Part shown: positions 3,448 to 55,116 of the stretch, piece after piece
Numbering within the stretch: position 1 is the stretch's first letter
Layout: each line of letters opens with the position of its first letter
DNA from: Halobacteriales archaeon SW_7_65_23
GTDB taxonomy: Archaea > Halobacteriota > Halobacteria > Halobacteriales > Haloarculaceae
DNA: 56,172 bases
Assembly: GCA_003022725.1 (NCBI GenBank)
Contig: PXSQ01000088.1
Span: forward strand, 36,510-92,681
Direction of reading: 5' to 3'
Position numbers and translations under genes: made by a program
Notes under the pieces: model-generated
Databases searched by the model: none
Told to the model about the DNA's origin: nothing
The model's input: only the letters and a program-made list of their open reading frames with translations

Positions 3448-3531
3448 TCGTGATTATTGTGACTGTTTACCGGGTCGACCGCACGTCTTTCGGCGGTCGC
3501 CTCGGTAAGGACTCACAATAATCACGATCAG
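3444..3531. repeat. 88-bp near-perfect inverted repeat (palindromic element, copy A)
   Basis: Positions 3444-3462 (starting CTGATCGTGATTATTG) are the exact reverse complement of 3513-3531. The match continues imperfectly inward (3463-3472 against 3503-3512, both ending in TTACCG), and GACCGC pairs with GCGGTC in the loop. The result is one long hairpin that begins over the stop codon of the histidine kinase. The left 22 bases at 3451-3472 match 16570-16591 at 20 of 22 positions, so this is a dispersed repeat and not only a local terminator. A miniature inverted-repeat element or a bidirectional terminator are the main options. Confidence 0.8.
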
Positions 3532-12551: not shown

Positions 12552-13397
12552 ATGGGCGAGGACGCCTCCGAGGAGCGCAACCTCTTTGCCCGCAGCCGGG
12601 AGTCCACCGCCGCATATGTGGCGAGTGACCTGGGCGTCGTCCGGGTCGACCTCGCGCCCGACCGGATCGGCGAGTTCTCGCTGGTCGAACGCTGCAACGC
12701 CCGCGGCGTCGCCGCCGGCGACGCGCTGGTCGCCGTCGCGACACCCGAAGGGGTACTGCTCGACCGCGGCGACGGGTTCACTGACCGCGGCTTTGACGAC
12801 GCTGTTGCGGTCGGCGTCGACGGCGGGACTGTGTACGCGGCGGCCCCTGGCGGCGAAATTGGGCGGCTCGACGCGTCAGCGGAATCTTCGGATAGCTGGG
12901 AGGCCGTCGGCACTGCCGGGGAGCCCCGGCGCTTCGACGGCGCGCTGCTGGCAGCCGGCGACGGCGTGTACCGGGTCGGCAACGGCCTGGAACCGCTCGG
13001 GCTGGGCAGTGCGGAGGACGTCGCAGCCGCCGGGCCGTACGCGGCGTTCGGGGATGGGCTGTTCCGCCGGACGGACGGCGACTGGCAACAGGAGTACGAG
13101 GGAGCGGCATCGATCGTTGCGGCCGATGGCGAGCGCGCTCACGCGGTCAGCAAGAGCGGGCTCCTCGAACGGGTGAGCGACGAGTCTGCGGGCGACGCTG
13201 CGCGCTGGGAACGGCTGGCGACGCCCGGGAGCGCGGTGCCTATCGACCTCGCGTATGGCGCCTGTCTGTACGCCGTTACGGCGGCCGGCGAGTTCCTGCT
13301 CGCGGCCGAGAAAGAGCAGGCGACGGACGGCCAGGGCGGCTGGCGCACCCGGACGCTCGGCGTTCGCGGCGTCACGGGGCTCGCCGTGCTGGGGTGA
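12552..13397 (+). CDS. Haloarchaeal beta-propeller-like protein (HVO_0234-like)
   Basis: The 281-residue acidic soluble protein is built of short repeated beta-strand units of the type GDGVYRVG, GTVYAAAPGGEIGRL and GLFRRTDGDW, spaced 40-50 residues apart, as expected for a propeller. It resembles the haloarchaeal family annotated as HVO_0234 family beta-propeller; this assignment is from memory. It starts 2 nt after hemL, so it belongs to that transcription unit, but a role in heme synthesis is only inferred. No signal peptide, so it should be cytoplasmic. Confidence 0.7.
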   Translation: MGEDASEERNLFARSRESTAAYVASDLGVVRVDLAPDRIGEFSLVERCNARGVAAGDALVAVATPEGVLLDRGDGFTDRGFDDAVAVGVDGGTVYAAAPGGEIGRLDASAESSDSWEAVGTAGEPRRFDGALLAAGDGVYRVGNGLEPLGLGSAEDVAAAGPYAAFGDGLFRRTDGDWQQEYEGAASIVAADGERAHAVSKSGLLERVSDESAGDAARWERLATPGSAVPIDLAYGACLYAVTAAGEFLLAAEKEQATDGQGGWRTRTLGVRGVTGLAVLG

Positions 13398-13824: not shown

Positions 13825-13877
13825 CCGTGAAACCAACGATATTGGGGCCCTAGTGCTGAAAATAATCACGCACGACC
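13825..13877. repeat. Palindromic-family repeat, partial copy C
   Basis: CCGTGAAACC at 13825-13834 and GTGCTGAAAATAATCAC at 13853-13869 recur at 16621-16630 and 16648-16664, with 10 of 10 and 16 of 17 identities and a spacing differing by one base. The left inverted arm seen in copies A and B is not detectable, so this looks like a decayed or half copy. Confidence 0.65.
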
Positions 13878-13995
13878 GTATGAGTAGTGCTTCGGTTGAA
13901 GCAGTGTGCCAGCGAGCGAATCCCTGCAACCACTTTCCAGCTGTTGCCCGGTCGACGCAAAAGAACTTTCTCGTTCGCAGTAATTCCGATAGCGC

Positions 13996-16502: not shown

Positions 16503-16569
16503 ACCCGAGTTTTGGATTCTCTACTGAAAAGTGTTTGTCCACAGTTTCTCGCGAACTGGCGCCTGATAG

Positions 16570-16672
16570 TGATTGTTGTGACTCTTTACCGCCGGGTATT
16601 CGTTAGACGCCAGTTCCGGGCCGTGAAACCGCCGCTATTGCGACATGGTGCCGAAAATAATCACAACAATCA
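16570..16672. repeat. 103-bp inverted-repeat element (palindromic family, copy B)
   Basis: TGATTGTTGTGA at 16570-16581 is the exact reverse complement of 16661-16672. The left end continues as CTCTTTACCG and matches copy A (3451-3472) at 20 of 22 bases. The right half shares CCGTGAAACC and GTGCCGAAAATAATCAC with copy C. Because it links A and C, it shows that all three belong to one family. No coding capacity. Confidence 0.75.
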
Positions 16673-16695
16673 AAGAATTACAGCCACCAGTATGA

Positions 16696-16709
16696 GTCCG
16701 ACAGTATGA
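16696..16709. repeat. Right-end fragment of the 110-bp TIR element family
   Basis: GTCCGACAGTA followed by TGA matches the right ends at 50450-50463 and, with one mismatch, 54727-54740. No matching left end was found nearby, so it is a truncated copy. Confidence 0.5.
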
Positions 16710-19541: not shown

Positions 19542-19609
19542 TACTGGTGGCTGTACGTACCTGGAGCCGATTCGATCCCTTGATGGGGCAGCGCGCCAAC
19601 TGACCGGCT

Positions 19610-49470: not shown

Positions 49471-49494
49471 TTGATCGCCGCCGCAGGGCGGCAC

Positions 49495-50352
49495 ATGCAG
49501 CTTCTCGCACACGGTGGCGCAGGCGGCGATCCCAACGACGCGGAGACGCGACAGCAGCAGCTCGACAGCGCCGTCGAGGCAGGCGCGGATGCCGGCGCTG
49601 ACGGCCCCGAAGCGGCCGTCGTAGCGACCGTCCGGGAACTGGAGTCGAGCCCGCGGTTCAACGCGGGCGTCGGCAGCACCGTCCAGAGCGACGGGGTCGT
49701 CCGGACCGACGCCGGGCTGATGCGCGAGGACGGGACTGCGGGCGCGGCCTGCTCGATGCCCGGCGTCGAGCACGCGGTCGATGTCGCCCGCGTCGTGGCA
49801 CACGAGACGCCGCACGTCCTCGTCTCCGGGGAAAACGCCATCGCGCTCGCCGACGCCTTCGACGTCGCGACCGACCGGGACCTCTGGACCGAGCGCACCC
49901 GCAAGTGCTGGCGCGAGATCGACCCGCCGGGTAGCGACGACCGGCGCGAGCACCTCCGGTGGGTTCGCGAGCAGTTCGGCGGTTTCGATACTGTGGGCGC
50001 CGTCGCCGTCGCGGGTGATCGCCTCGCCGCCGCGACATCGACTGGCGGCCGATGGTATGCGCTCGCGGGCCGCGTCGGTGACGTGCCGCAGGTCGGCGCC
50101 GGCTTCTACGCGACCGAGCACACGGCCGTCAGCGCCACCGGCGCTGGCGAAGCTATCGCCCGCTTCGGCCTTTCCCGATGGGTCGCCGACGCTATCGAAG
50201 ACGGCGCTGACCCGGCCGCGGCGTGCGAGCGCGGGATCGAGGCGTTCGAGGCCGCGACTGGCGACATCGCCGGCGTGATCGCCGTCGACCGCGAGGGTCG
50301 CACCGGCGAGGCGTTCAACTCCGACTCGATGCAGACCGGCAGTTCCGGGTGA
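49495..50352 (+). CDS. Isoaspartyl peptidase / plant-type L-asparaginase
   Basis: The 285-residue protein is an Ntn hydrolase that self-cleaves to expose a threonine. The start MQLLAHGGAGGDPND, the ARFNAG-like SSPRFNAGVGS, the cleavage site GFDTVGAVAVAGD with the nucleophile Thr, and ATSTGGRWYALAGRVGDVP are all visible. It removes isoaspartyl damage or hydrolyses asparagine derivatives. ATG 49495 is preferred over TTG 49471. The final TGA forms the left flank of a 110-bp inverted-repeat element. Confidence 0.9.
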   Translation: MQLLAHGGAGGDPNDAETRQQQLDSAVEAGADAGADGPEAAVVATVRELESSPRFNAGVGSTVQSDGVVRTDAGLMREDGTAGAACSMPGVEHAVDVARVVAHETPHVLVSGENAIALADAFDVATDRDLWTERTRKCWREIDPPGSDDRREHLRWVREQFGGFDTVGAVAVAGDRLAAATSTGGRWYALAGRVGDVPQVGAGFYATEHTAVSATGAGEAIARFGLSRWVADAIEDGADPAAACERGIEAFEAATGDIAGVIAVDREGRTGEAFNSDSMQTGSSG

Positions 50353-50461
50353 TACTGTCGGACGTAACTCTGTGTCACATCGTGACACTCTCCTGGCTGT
50401 ATTCGCACGGGTGAACGGCTGAACGTGACGCGTGACTCCACGAAATTACGTCCGACAGTAT
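50352..50461. mobile_element. 110-bp MITE-like element with 16-bp terminal inverted repeats (copy 1)
   Basis: ATACTGTCGGACGTAA at 50352-50367 is the exact reverse complement of 50446-50461. The core between TGA trinucleotides (50350-50352 and 50461-50463) is 108 bp. The left TGA is the stop codon of the isoaspartyl peptidase gene. A second element of the same length, with the same first 22 bases, is at 54629-54738. No coding capacity, so it would need a transposase from elsewhere. Confidence 0.8.
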
Positions 50462-50533
50462 GAGCAACGGCGAACCAGGCGCCCGGCCGCGGAGAACGGT
50501 ACCTCTTTTGTCCCCTCACGCAAAAGGCGGGGT

Positions 50534-51427
50534 ATGAGCGCTGACGTGGACCTGGACGAGGAGAAATACGAGAAACACCGCGAGGCGGGAGAGATCGTCA
50601 TCGAGGTGCGGGCCGAGGCGGTTGACCGCATCGAGGTCGGGGCGAGCCACCTCGAACTCGCGGAGTGGGTCGAGAGGCGGATCCGGGAACTCGGCGGGAA
50701 GCCGGCGTTCCCGATGAACATCTCCATCGACGAGGAGGCCGCCCACGCGACGCCGGGCGTCGACGACGACGAGACGTTCGGCGAGGAGATGATCAACGTC
50801 GACATCGGCGTCCACGTCGACGGCTGGATCGCCGACACCGCCATCACGGTCGACCTCTCCGGGCAGGACGAACTCGTCGAGGCCTCCGCGGAGGCGCTTG
50901 ACGCCGCCATCGAGATGATCGAACCGGGGATCAACACGGGCGTGCTCGGCGACGTCATCGGCCGCACCATCGAGGGGTACGGCTACAACCCCGTCGTGAA
51001 CCTCACCGGCCACGGCCTGGGCCACTGGGAACAGCACACGACGCCGAACATCCCCAACCGGAAAGTCTCCCAGGGCGTCGAACTGGCGGTCGGCGACGTC
51101 GTCGCCATCGAACCGTTCGCCACCGACGGCGGGGGCAAGGTAAAGGAGGGCAGCGACGAGGAGATCTTCGCCCTCGAATCGGAGGGGTCGGTCCGCGACC
51201 GCAACGCCCGCCAGGTCCTCGACCAGGTCACCGAGGAGTACCGCACGCTCCCCTTTGCCACCCGGTGGCTCGACGCCGACCGCACCGGGATGGCGCTGCG
51301 CCGCCTCAAGCGCGAGGACATCGTCCACGGCTACTCCGTTCTCAAGGAGGAGGAAGGCTGTTACGTCAGCCAGAAGGAACACACCGTTATCGTCACCGAG
51401 GACGGCTGTGAAGTGACGACGCGGTAA
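50534..51427 (+). CDS. map: Methionine aminopeptidase, type II
   Basis: The 297-residue enzyme removes the initiator methionine from new proteins. Metal ligands of the pita-bread fold are seen in NVDIGVHVDGWIADTA (two Asp), GHGLGHWEQH (His), AIEPFATDG (Glu) and CYVSQKEHTVIV (Glu). The helical insertion typical of type II lies in residues about 185-240. ATG 50534 is the family start; the extended frame runs into the inverted-repeat element. The element therefore sits 70 bases upstream and may carry or separate its promoter. Confidence 0.95.
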   Translation: MSADVDLDEEKYEKHREAGEIVIEVRAEAVDRIEVGASHLELAEWVERRIRELGGKPAFPMNISIDEEAAHATPGVDDDETFGEEMINVDIGVHVDGWIADTAITVDLSGQDELVEASAEALDAAIEMIEPGINTGVLGDVIGRTIEGYGYNPVVNLTGHGLGHWEQHTTPNIPNRKVSQGVELAVGDVVAIEPFATDGGGKVKEGSDEEIFALESEGSVRDRNARQVLDQVTEEYRTLPFATRWLDADRTGMALRRLKREDIVHGYSVLKEEEGCYVSQKEHTVIVTEDGCEVTTR

Positions 51428-51541
51428 TCCACGGATCGGCAGGAATTCCGCGAATTTCTTGAGAACTTCGACCGTTTTCCGAAAAGGGTCGGCAAACCGA
51501 TCCGTAACTGTGCCAATTCGACTACGATACGACGTGAAAGA

Positions 51542-51628
51542 ATGTCGAGTGAAAACGGTGACCGGCCCGGCGAATCGCGGTCCCTGATGGGTGTCAACGG
51601 CTTGCATTACCCCATCAGAAAGTATTAA
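51542..51628 (+). CDS. Possible micro-ORF (28 aa)
   Basis: The frame starts MSSENGDRPGESRSL and ends LHYPIRKY before TAA. Codon third positions look coding. Its last codons overlap the TATA-like palindrome of the argG leader. No family recognised and no clear promoter, so it is only a candidate. Confidence 0.3.
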   Translation: MSSENGDRPGESRSLMGVNGLHYPIRKY

Positions 51629-51631
51629 TAC
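51621..51631 (+). promoter_or_regulatory. TATA-like box of the argG leader transcript
   Basis: AGTATTAATAC contains the perfect palindrome GTATTAATAC. It lies 24-34 nt before ATG 51655, placing the predicted transcript start at or next to that ATG. Confidence 0.5.
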
Positions 51632-51654
51632 GTCGGTCAGATAAAGAAGGGGTA

Positions 51655-51744
51655 ATGAGACAGACCTGCGGCGCCGACGCGAGCAGATCCGGCAGCCCAG
51701 GCTCTGGCCGCCTCCTTCTCGTGCGACCACGACCGGGCCGGTAA
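51655..51744 (+). CDS. Arginine-rich leader ORF (29 aa) upstream of argG
   Basis: The frame MRQTCGADASRSG... ends in LLLVRPRPGR and has six arginines in 29 residues. Four of them use AGA or CGA, codons rarely chosen in GC-rich haloarchaeal genes. A TATA-like box at the right distance predicts a leaderless start exactly here. A GGGCC-GGTAA-GGCCC hairpin spans the stop codon. It sits 112 bases before argG, so an arginine-sensing leader is a tempting inference; attenuation of this kind is not established in archaea. Confidence 0.4.
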   Translation: MRQTCGADASRSGSPGSGRLLLVRPRPGR

Positions 51745-51792
51745 GGCCCTACTTAGTTTCATCCCCACGACGTACGTACCGCAGCTAATCGC

Positions 51793-51833
51793 CGCCCACC
51801 GTCGGGTTCTGGGGCGGGCATTACGCACCCGAC
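51793..51833 (+). promoter_or_regulatory. Overlapping hairpins before argG
   Basis: GTCGGGT (51801-51807) pairs perfectly with ACCCGAC (51827-51833). CGCCC (51793-51797) can pair with GGGCG (51812-51816). The two cannot form together, a layout like alternative leader structures. A weak TATA-like CATTACGC lies in the same stretch and could instead drive argG directly. Confidence 0.35.
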
Positions 51834-51856
51834 ACTCACAACACCACACGATATCC

Positions 51857-53101
51857 ATGCCAGAACACACGAAAGTTGCACTCGCCTTCTCCGGCGGGCT
51901 CGACACCACAGTCTGCGTCCCGCTGCTCGAAGAGGAGTACGGCTTCGACGAAGTAATCGGCGTGACGGTCGACGTCGGCCAGCCCGAGGCGGAGTTCGCC
52001 GAGGCCCGCGAAACCGCCAACGCGCTCGGAGTCGAACATTTCGTGGTCGACGCCCGCGAGGAGTTCGCCGACCTCTGTCTGAAGTCCGTCACCGCAAACG
52101 CGACCTACCAGGGGTACCCGCTCGGGACAGCACTCGCGCGGCCGGTGATCGCCGAGGCGATCCTCGACGTCGCCCTCGAGGAGGGCTGTGACGCGCTCGC
52201 GCACGGCTGTACCGGCAAGGGCAACGACCAGCTCCGGTTCGAGGCCGTCTGGCGGGACTCGCCGCTTGAGGTGATCGCGCCGGTCCGCGAACTCGGCCTG
52301 ACCCGCGAGTGGGAAAACGAGTACGCCGCCGAACAGGGCCTGCCCGTCGAGGGCGGGTCGGAAGGCCGCTACAGCATCGACTCGAACCTCTGGAGCCGCT
52401 CGATCGAGGGCTCGGAACTCGAAGACCCCTCGACGATCCCCGAGGACGACATCTACGAGTGGACGGACAACCCCGGCGGCGTCGAGTCCGAACTGGTTGA
52501 GCTCGCCTTCGAGAACGGAACTCCGGTCACTGTCAATGACGAGGCGCTGGGCGCGGTCGAACTGATCGAAACGCTCAACGCCCTCGCCGGCGCCCACGGC
52601 GTCGGCCGCACCGACATGATGGAGGACCGGATGCTCGGGCTGAAGGTCCGCGAGAACTACGAGCACCCGGCGGCGACGGTGCTTTTGACGGCCCACGAGG
52701 CGCTGGAGGGCCTCGTACTGACCCGCGAACAGCGCGAGTTCAAACAGCAGGTCGACCAGCAGTGGTCCTGGAAGGCCTACCAGGGGCTGATCGACGCGCC
52801 GCTGATGAAAGCCCTCGAAGGGTTCATCGACGCCACTCAGGAGCGGGTGACGGGCACCGTCACGGTCAAGCTGGAGGGCGGGCACTGCCGCGCGGTCGCC
52901 CGTGAGAGCGAGTTCGCGGTGTACAGTGAGAGCGCCGCCTCATTCGACGAAGGCACCGTGACGGGTAGCATCACCCAGGAGGACGCCACGGGCGTCGCCA
53001 AGTACCACGGGTTCCAGTCCCGCCTGGCCAACAGCAAGGTGAGTCCCGACGCGGACGACGCGGAGACCGAATCGACAGAGACCCCCGAGAAACCCCACTG
53101 A
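51857..53101 (+). CDS. argG: Argininosuccinate synthase
   Basis: The 414-residue enzyme joins citrulline and aspartate with ATP to give argininosuccinate. The PP-loop AFSGGLDTTVCVPLL is at the N-terminus, and ALAHGCTGKGNDQLRFE and YSIDSNLWSRSIEGSELEDP follow as expected. The C-terminal 20 residues are an acidic extension. argH follows after a single base, so both are one operon. It is preceded by an unusual leader region. Confidence 0.97.
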   Translation: MPEHTKVALAFSGGLDTTVCVPLLEEEYGFDEVIGVTVDVGQPEAEFAEARETANALGVEHFVVDAREEFADLCLKSVTANATYQGYPLGTALARPVIAEAILDVALEEGCDALAHGCTGKGNDQLRFEAVWRDSPLEVIAPVRELGLTREWENEYAAEQGLPVEGGSEGRYSIDSNLWSRSIEGSELEDPSTIPEDDIYEWTDNPGGVESELVELAFENGTPVTVNDEALGAVELIETLNALAGAHGVGRTDMMEDRMLGLKVRENYEHPAATVLLTAHEALEGLVLTREQREFKQQVDQQWSWKAYQGLIDAPLMKALEGFIDATQERVTGTVTVKLEGGHCRAVARESEFAVYSESAASFDEGTVTGSITQEDATGVAKYHGFQSRLANSKVSPDADDAETESTETPEKPH

Positions 53102-53102
53102 G

Positions 53103-54629
53103 ATGACCAGCCACGACGAGGACCCCGAGGAGACCGAAGACGGCGCGACCGCGGCGTCCGCCGGCGGCGACCACGCCGCCGACAAGGGCGTCGTCCGCCG
53201 AGAGCGATTCAGCGGCGGGCCCGCCCGGGCGTTTCTCTCCTCGCTGGCCGCCGACGAGCGCATCTTCGCGGCCGACCTGGCGGTCGACCGGGCCCACGTC
53301 GTGATGCTGGCCGAACAGGGAATCATCGGAGCGGACGACGCCGCGGCGATCCTGGCGGCGCTCGACGACGTCGAGGCGGCGGGCCACGGAGCACTACCGG
53401 ACGGCGAGGACGTCCACGAGGCGATCGAGACGGCAGTGATCGACCGCGTCGGGCCCGCGGGCGGCCGCATGCACACCGCGCGGTCGCGCAACGACGAGGT
53501 CGCGGCCTGCATCCGCTACCGCCTGCGCGAGGACCTGCTCGCGACCGTCGGGACCGTCGTCGAGGGCCGCGAGACGCTGCTCGACGTGGCCGCCACCGAG
53601 ACGGAGACGATCATGCCGGGGTACACCCACCGCCAGCCCGCCCAGCCGACGACGGTCGCCCACTGGGTGTGCTCCTACGAGTCGGCGCTCGCCCGGGACA
53701 CCGAACGGCTGCTGGACGCATACGGCCGGGTCAACCGGTCGCCGCTCGGCGCGGCAGCGTTCGCCGGGACGAGCTTCGACATCGACCGCGAGCGCACCGC
53801 CGAGTTGCTCGGATTCGACGGGATCGTCGAGAACTCGATGGACGCGTCGTCGGCGCGGGATTTCCTGATGGAGACGTCCGCAACAGTTACGGGCCTGGCG
53901 ACGACGCTCGCGGGCCTGTCGACGGACGTCGTCGAGTTCGCGAGCGACGGGTACATCGACCTGTCCGACGACTACGCCTCGACGTCGAGCATCATGCCCC
54001 AGAAGAAGAACCCTGACACGCTGGAACTGGTCCGGAGCCGCGCGGGCGACGTCGCATCGGGGCTCTCGGGGCTGGTGACGACGCTCTCGGGGCTGCCCCG
54101 GGCGTACAACCGCGACCTGCAGCGGGCGACCGGCCACGCCTGGGACGCCGTCGACGCCGTCCACGAGGCCGTCCCGGTCGCCGTCGGCGCCGTCGCGACC
54201 GCCGACTGGCCCGCCGAGACACTCGAAGCGGCCGCTGGCGACGGGTTCGCCACCGCGACCGGCGTCGCAGACCGCCTCGCCGTGGCCGGCATCCCGTTCC
54301 GGACCGCCCACGAACTCGTCGCGCGCGCGGGCGACCTGGCCGACGGCGGCAACCCCGGCGTCGAGGCGATCGACGAGGCCTGCCGCGAGGTGCTGGGCGA
54401 ACCCTTAGAGGCTGTCGCCGACGTCGCGGCGATCGAATCGGCACTTGACCCCGTCGAGAACGTAGCGATGCGCGATTCGCGCGGCGGACCCGCACCCGCT
54501 GCGGTCGAGGCGCACCTCGACCGGACGCGCGAGGGCGTCGCCGCCGACCGCGAGACGCTTGCGGGTCGCCAGAAGCGGATCGAGGACGCCGAGGAGGCGC
54601 TCGATGCGGAGGTGTCGAGCTATGTCTGA
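53103..54629 (+). CDS. argH: Argininosuccinate lyase
   Basis: The 508-residue enzyme splits argininosuccinate into arginine and fumarate. The fumarase-superfamily signature SSIMPQKKNPDTLELVRS is intact, as are MHTARSRNDEVAACIRY and PGYTHRQPAQPTT. The N-terminal 30 residues are an acidic, disordered tail. Its TGA stop is the left flank of the second 110-bp inverted-repeat element, which separates argGH from lysW. Confidence 0.97.
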   Translation: MTSHDEDPEETEDGATAASAGGDHAADKGVVRRERFSGGPARAFLSSLAADERIFAADLAVDRAHVVMLAEQGIIGADDAAAILAALDDVEAAGHGALPDGEDVHEAIETAVIDRVGPAGGRMHTARSRNDEVAACIRYRLREDLLATVGTVVEGRETLLDVAATETETIMPGYTHRQPAQPTTVAHWVCSYESALARDTERLLDAYGRVNRSPLGAAAFAGTSFDIDRERTAELLGFDGIVENSMDASSARDFLMETSATVTGLATTLAGLSTDVVEFASDGYIDLSDDYASTSSIMPQKKNPDTLELVRSRAGDVASGLSGLVTTLSGLPRAYNRDLQRATGHAWDAVDAVHEAVPVAVGAVATADWPAETLEAAAGDGFATATGVADRLAVAGIPFRTAHELVARAGDLADGGNPGVEAIDEACREVLGEPLEAVADVAAIESALDPVENVAMRDSRGGPAPAAVEAHLDRTREGVAADRETLAGRQKRIEDAEEALDAEVSSYV

Positions 54630-54738
54630 TACTGTCGGACGTAACTCTGTGCAATGGCAAGACACGCAAACCGGGGTATTCACACGTTTCAGCACGGTTC
54701 CGCGGTGGAAATCCCCACGCACTCACGTCCGACAATAT
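54629..54738. mobile_element. 110-bp MITE-like element with 16-bp terminal inverted repeats (copy 2)
   Basis: ATACTGTCGGACGTAA at 54629-54644 pairs with 54723-54738 with two mismatches. The size is exactly that of copy 1 and the first 22 bases after TGA are identical; the interior differs strongly. Again the left TGA (54627-54629) is a stop codon, here of argH, and TGA recurs on the right (54738-54740). Confidence 0.78.
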
Positions 54739-54796
54739 GAGTTCCACGGCACGCCCGGCGGACGCGCAGCGCCACGGCCACCACGACCGATCCCAC

Positions 54797-54951: not shown

Positions 54952-55116
54952 ATGACAGACTGCATCGAATGTGGGGCGGACCTGACCCTGCACGAGTCGC
55001 TCGAGATCGGAGAGATCATCGACTGTGGCACCTGCGGGGCCGAGCTCGAAGTGATCGACACGGATCCCGTGGCGCTGGACACAGCGCCCGAGCTGGAGGA
55101 AGACTGGGGTGAGTAA
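54952..55116 (+). CDS. lysW: Amino-group carrier protein LysW/ArgW
   Basis: The 54-residue protein has two zinc-binding pairs (CIECGADLTLHES and CGTCGAELEV) and ends in the invariant EDWGE, whose terminal glutamate carries the substrate through an isopeptide bond. In archaea this carrier replaces N-acetylation in arginine and/or lysine synthesis. Placement right after argGH and before the ATP-grasp ligase points to arginine synthesis. The start follows a TATA-like box at leaderless distance. Confidence 0.95.
   Translation: MTDCIECGADLTLHESLEIGEIIDCGTCGAELEVIDTDPVALDTAPELEEDWGE

Follow-up and report, generated by a model that had tools for sequence, protein, structure and literature searches.

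Two short inverted-repeat elements at stop codons of a haloarchaeal genome as probable members of a superfamily of non-autonomous transposons duplicating TNA

REP/REPIN sequences and other palindromic repeats are short, hairpin-forming, present in high copy number and mostly intergenic. Conventional miniature inverted-repeat transposable elements (MITEs) of IS5-like transposons are short and non-coding, have terminal repeats, duplicate their target and are moved in trans. In Haloquadratum walsbyi two sets of small mobile repeats (SMRs) are distinguished, SMR-A (HqIRS42, 43 and 55) and SMR-B (HqIRS40 and 41), and their mobilisation is termed 'enigmatic' in the passages of the source that deal with them (PMC3119063). 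The NuwaII group of the eukaryotic PHIS superfamily, which is related to IS5, has the target C|TNA|G and a probable 3-bp TNA duplication, according to the part of its description that concerns targets (PMC4482050). The present analysis concerns two inverted-repeat elements, each situated directly behind the stop codon of a gene, in a stretch of 56,172 nucleotides from Halobacteriales archaeon SW_7_65_23 (assembly GCA_003022725.1, contig PXSQ01000088.1, positions 36,510 to 92,681), hereafter called the window. Both are very probably MITEs of one haloarchaeal superfamily, in which a transposase supplied in trans recognises ends of 15 bp, cuts C|TNA|G and duplicates TNA.

Copy 1 lies at 50353..50460 and copy 2 at 54630..54737 of the window, both on the + strand. 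They had been predicted as elements of 110 bp, a length that takes in one base of each flanking TGA; both exist, and their true size is 108 bp. Several other features of the original prediction are borne out: the initial 22 bases of the two copies are identical, TGA flanks all four ends, the left TGA is in both copies the stop codon of the upstream gene, and the ends are conserved while the interiors have diverged. The left target duplication of copy 1 (50350..50352, +) is the stop codon of an Asparaginase_2 family gene, as assigned by gene calls and Pfam, and the right one is at 50461..50463 (+). Those of copy 2 are at 54627..54629 (+), the stop codon of argH (gene calls, Pfam and relatives), and at 54738..54740 (+). 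The terminal inverted repeats (TIRs) match at 15/15 positions in copy 1 and at 13/15 in copy 2. The interiors differ because the copies fall in different subfamilies. Copy 1 belongs to the main subfamily, which holds 43 of the 45 source-genome copies of 108 bp, all 43 sharing 96% identity or more with copy 1 (98% on average); copy 2, of a divergent subfamily, is one of the two outliers, with 63% identity to copy 1. The high identity among the 108-bp copies suggests a recent spread.

A search of the 2.63-Mb draft source genome for TACTGTCGGACGTAA, with up to two mismatches, gives 116 forward and 97 reverse matches (213 in all), while the reversed pattern, taken as control, gives 0 forward and 1 reverse. 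The source-genome stretches examined hold 50 paired copies, 45 of 108 bp and the rest of 75, 82, 100, 100 and 107 bp. Unpaired end matches (up to three mismatches) number 61; some are due to chance, and several fall at runs of N or contig ends and are not counted as true truncations. Identical TNA flanks are found in 36 of the 50 paired copies, namely TCA/TCA in 20, TGA/TGA in 11, TAA/TAA in 4 and TTA/TTA in 1, TCA being TGA read on the opposite strand. Since the middle base varies and yet agrees on both sides, the target duplication is TNA. The TGA first proposed as target is thus a duplicated triplet but too narrow a rule, copies without TGA flanks being present, and a target of TGA only is rejected. 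At the 36 matched sites the target context is palindromic, TnC|TNA|GnA, with C at -2 in 41/72 and T at -4 in 33/72 of the symmetrised positions. In the source contigs C6, C19, C31, C46, C47 and C58 an element lies some 150 bp or less from the contig end, and the repeats seem to break the draft assembly.

Empty sites are found in relatives, where their lack would have spoken against insertion. At the site of copy 1, a single TGA stop without element is present in G107 (protein 95% identical) and in G104 (84%), and the copy is absent from 12 further genomes of the same genus with a readable gene end, in which the stops are various. The site of copy 2 was compared in 18 same-genus genomes: the element is present in the source, G104 and G107 have a broken element at this argH stop, 12 genomes lack it (11 with TGA and one with TAA at the argH stop), and three are unreadable. 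This pattern indicates that copy 1 is recent and that copy 2 is older than the split of the three genomes. Copy number is patchy within the genus, with 0 matches in five genomes of 98–99% completeness and 41 to 180 in four drafts, the source included.

The two copies are part of a larger set. A generic scan for identical TNA flanks with 13/15 matching terminal bases, 40–220 bp apart, finds 68 elements in 462,612 bp and 0 in 120,412 bp of mononucleotide-shuffled sequence. When the ends are limited to TA[CG][TG]G, with 11/15 matching bases and a distance of 40–160 bp, the source genome and its relatives yield 153 elements, which group by interior sequence into 33 families. The modal length is 77–80 bp in 9 families and 105–109 bp in 21; 68, 87 and 160 bp are the modes of one family each, and single copies off the modal lengths also occur (e.g., 82–102 and 114–149 bp). 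The interiors of the families are mostly unrelated (median best identity 0.38, versus 0.36 in shuffled sequence); 38 of 210 pairs exceed the shuffled 99% level, and therefore some families are of common descent. In the 78-bp class a central hairpin is conserved. Its core is found in 32 of 392 genomes of the order and in 10 of 95 genera, with at most 82 forward matches per genome and 0 control matches. Among 20 fetched loci with this core, 13 yield a TNA-flanked element in the scan, all of 78 bp; in 5 more the ends or flanks around the core are damaged but can still be recognised, and the other 2 are of neither kind.

The two arms of the elements are not equivalent beyond the 15-bp repeat. Base 16 is unlike between the arms in all 30 families of the two length classes, where random pairing would make 9.6 equal (0 of 20,000 pairings as low as observed), and in 25 of the 30 it is C in one arm and G or T in the other. 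Base 18 is unlike in 28/30 (21 of 20,000 random pairings), while base 17 is equal in 25/30 and mostly T. These statistics are optimistic, as the families are not fully independent. We read this asymmetry as a sign that the two ends may be functionally different. Nesting in, or contact with, elements of the same superfamily is seen in 13 of 110 cases. The loci L194 (3001-3218) and L197 (2938-3154) are clean nested cases: a 107-bp element holds a second element, of 108 bp in the former and of 107 bp in the latter, which has a duplication of its own.

Copy number, terminal repeats, target duplication, empty sites and nesting all support the MITE reading, which had been the first suggestion for these elements. 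At the level of sequence comparison, high copy number, TNA duplication, empty sites, two length classes, arm asymmetry and a stop-codon excess of the paired copies are demonstrated. The enzyme, acting in trans, is inferred to be of the DDE type, in the style of IS5 and PHIS. It would recognise the 15-bp ends and move the element by cut-and-paste, and the palindromic target C|TNA|G would be cut with a 3-base stagger, so that TNA is duplicated. A hit on TGA or TAA would copy the stop codon to both sides and leave the upstream protein unchanged, while insertions within genes would presumably be lost by selection. Because TGA and TAA are themselves TNA, insertion there preserves the stop codon and the upstream protein without any special targeting.

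The frequency of insertion at stop codons was estimated in nine genomes, with elements removed in silico beforehand and genes called by a home-made six-frame codon model. The stretches were picked for holding elements, and hence only relative rates are meaningful. Of 136 insertion points 135 were classed: 47 coincide with stops, 78 fall elsewhere in non-coding sequence and 10 inside called genes, the available TNA sites (occupied ones included) being 688, 7846 and 15,289, respectively. Thus a called stop codon is hit in 47 of 125 non-coding insertions, compared with 641 of 8409 empty TNA sites outside coding sequences (CDS; null 7.6%), and the odds ratio (OR) for stops versus other non-coding sites is 7.3 (p ~1e-20). 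Insertion exactly at a stop, as originally predicted, applies to the two window copies and, over the nine genomes, to somewhat more than one third of the paired copies outside coding sequence, and not to all copies. Insertions per 1000 TNA sites are 68 at the stop, 25 at 1–20 nt, 16 at 21–60 nt and 12 at 61–150 nt downstream, and none of the 1130 TNA sites in the 60 nt before stops is used. Stops also exceed the 1–20 nt downstream of them (OR 2.8, p = 0.001; with TGA/TCA only, OR 2.4, p = 0.007).

The excess has the same direction in all nine genomes and in both length classes, and is significant for the source (p = 2e-9), G061 (9e-6), G001 (6e-4), G141 (0.011) and G051 (0.015). In the source genome, a called stop forms a flank of 16 of 51 paired copies of the main end type, and with all families 19 of 60 lie at stops, against a null of 7.8%, or of 10.4% when weighted by target context with a position weight matrix (PWM; p = 6e-6). 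In five relatives from five genera, one of them the source genus, 19 of 52 non-CDS insertions are at stops. Annotation independent of the home-made gene caller is available for two plasmids. In pLC1Hm-01, 11 places resembling the 78-bp element are listed by BLAST, and a scan of 200 of its 224 kb finds four 78-bp copies, two of which, starting at 12941 and 70887, directly follow annotated stop codons (CDS ends 12940 and 70886). In a Salinirubellus plasmid, a 25-nt right-end match adjoins the stop of an annotated CDS at 321998, and no paired element was found there on scanning.

Several observations weigh against the above interpretation. Flanks are unmatched in 14 of the 50 source-genome pairs. 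Among 50 unpaired source-genome ends only 3 adjoin a called stop, no more than the null, a count for which one flank is scorable and many ends are gaps or contig ends. A looser comparison of stops with downstream sites, in which neighbouring genes, their stops included, also contribute downstream sites, gives for TGA/TCA an OR of 1.5 (p = 0.12), and four of the nine genomes are not significant alone (G062, 0.067; G132, 0.089; G022, 0.095; G104, 0.11). Nor was an autonomous partner found in a search that covered two Pfam families in partly incomplete genomes: of 39 matches to PF01609 in ten genomes, 30 were inspected, and in none of these is the transposase enclosed by opposed TACTG ends; PF13586 is absent from all ten. 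In four other genomes, there are no opposed ends at insertion sequence (IS) distance beyond those paired as short copies.

The full-length IS with the same ends that had been anticipated was also looked for by long TNA/TIR scans, without success; these give only chance-like pairs and pairs of short-copy ends (five regions inspected end by end, others by end sequence). In G001, scanned on both strands to about 0.66 Mb, no IS-length pair occurs, and the ends pair at 77–78 bp, except for some single ends, a 73-bp pair and a 113-bp pair. Two scans of viral contigs found 0 exact TACTGTCGGACGTAA pairs, a search of plasmids for copy 1 gave one 30-nt match at chance level, and a scan of the Haloquadratum plasmid PL47 found no elements; among the 392 sampled genomes none could be identified as that of Haloquadratum (best match 52%). 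Among the first 100 of the 213 source-genome matches, the only opposed pair at IS distance besides short copies, C8:52846-54094, was rejected as a candidate, since by eye it encloses a regulator-like open reading frame.

The extra excess exactly at the stop may come from target choice, from selection, or from both. That stops are hit more often than the next 20 nt suggests a factor beyond the protein-sparing effect of TNA duplication, though this depends on how neighbouring genes are counted. If selection alone is at work on the MITEs, the transposase may hit any C|TNA|G, selection removes whatever lands in genes or promoters, and at the 3' end of a gene the stop is no more than the earliest position where an insertion is tolerated. 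We give this version about even chances: the unused sites before stops, the gradient falling away downstream, the part of the excess that target context explains (the rise of the source-genome null under PWM weighting) and the looser comparison are in its favour, whereas the cleaner comparison with the next 20 nt, also with TGA/TCA only, and the source-genome excess that survives the PWM null are not. It is rather unlikely, on our estimate, that the transposition complex actively prefers stops, for instance through the transcribed 3' end of a gene or a bound host factor. Such targeting would agree with the uniform direction of the excess in nine genomes and both length classes; it sits poorly with the gradient that goes on downstream of the stop, with the lack of excess among unpaired ends, with an orientation unbiased relative to TGA (40 versus 42, 15 unclear), and with the fact that no host factor or transposase is known.

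The unbiased orientation speaks also against the elements being gene-end devices, that is, terminators, processing sites or hairpins stabilising the 3' end of mRNA that are retained at stops for their usefulness; the original prediction had proposed the first two of these as its alternative. The excess at the 3' edge of genes would fit such a role, and among 22 family representatives almost every one folds into a stem formed by the arms, though inverted ends imply folding anyway. Copies 1 and 2 contain no terminator-like site (the region has 2, versus 2.5 in shuffles), there is no Rfam match, the majority of copies are away from stops, and close relatives lack copy 1; a gene-end function is therefore improbable. 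The same folding, together with the failure to find a partner with the same ends, would suit a REP/RAYT-like system, in which a resident single-strand (HUH/Y1) transposase mobilises folded elements. This we regard as very improbable, because the elements have a clear 3-base duplication, whereas transposons of the IS605 type make none, as far as the relevant passages of the source go (PMC3119063).

The MITE interpretation allows a comparison with the systems described at the outset. From REP/REPIN sequences, with which they share shortness, high copy number, hairpin formation and a mostly intergenic position, the elements differ in duplicating their target and in having transposon-type ends. 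Like conventional MITEs of IS5-like transposons they are short and non-coding, have terminal repeats, duplicate their target and would be moved in trans; they differ in having two length classes, no parent IS found, and a base 16 unlike between the arms. NuwaII has the same C|TNA|G target with a probable 3-bp TNA duplication, but it is eukaryotic, most of its TIRs start with GG, and its autonomous candidates are about 4.7 kb, according to the sections of the source on this group (PMC4482050). By description, the elements most resemble the Haloquadratum SMRs. On the partial account used here, the SMRs are about 110 bp (SMR-A) or 80 bp (HqIRS41) long, with prominent inverted ends, high copy number and insertion into other mobile elements; they differ in that target duplication is not described and PATE/IS605 palindromes are preferred, whereas the present elements duplicate TNA and are over-represented at stop codons (PMC3119063). 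The element end at the start of source contig C8 (G000:C8; L073, match at 129) adjoins an IS605-type palindrome, as judged by eye, which may be compared with the description of SMR-A.

The kind of element, MITE or small mobile repeat, is thus already known. In the open-licence literature searched, no report of MITEs enriched at stop codons or of these haloarchaeal families was found, and nothing there, as far as the listings show, describes the TNA rule, the pair of length classes, the unlike arms at base 16 or an excess at stop codons in several genera. The length classes of about 78 and 108 bp, 30 bp apart, would point to a nucleoprotein ruler in transposition, 30 bp corresponding to roughly three turns of the helix, or to the length that one archaeal histone dimer wraps; the fixed lengths make such a ruler directly testable. 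Tentatively, and with more doubt than confidence, we propose that the superfamily consists of MITEs whose length is set by a ruler and whose two ends must differ, and that it has adapted to stop codons: by duplicating TNA, and so rebuilding the codon on which they land, its members would use a safe harbour that renews itself. An orphan protein resident in the genome, with no ends belonging to it, may serve as transposase. The elements represent a widespread class of archaeal mobile DNA defined by three rules (TNA duplication, two length classes and unlike bases at arm position 16), landing on a stop codon that is rebuilt is a testable route to harm avoidance, and the class may also account for the 'enigmatic' Haloquadratum repeats.

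The neighbouring genes in the window are all on the + strand. Copy 1 lies between the Asparaginase_2 family gene (49471..50352; gene calls and Pfam) and a gene for an M24 metallopeptidase (50534..51427). Copy 2 follows argH, for argininosuccinate lyase (53103..54629; Pfam Lyase_1 and argininosuccinate lyase C-terminal domain), and precedes a gene for a LysW-like carrier (54952..55116).

The window contains 6 end-like matches with up to three mismatches, compared with 0.85 expected by chance. The right-end fragment earlier noted at 16696-16709 is real and belongs to a stack of broken elements at 16567..16706 (+). The stack begins at 16567 with the 5' end TAGTGATTGTTGTGA of a third family and includes the right end of the TACTGGTGGCTGTA family (16678-16692, followed by TGA) and GTCCGACAGTA (16696-16706, with TGA on either side). 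Ends of three families, two of them at successive TGA triplets, would represent repeated insertion beside an earlier element. An 80-bp element of the hairpin class with TCGTGATTATTGTGA ends lies at 3448-3527, where TGA on the left and TCA on the right give no matched duplication. Two further families are represented by single ends, TACGGTCGTGCGTGA at 13866-13880 (-) and TACTGGTGGCTGT at 19542-19554 (+).

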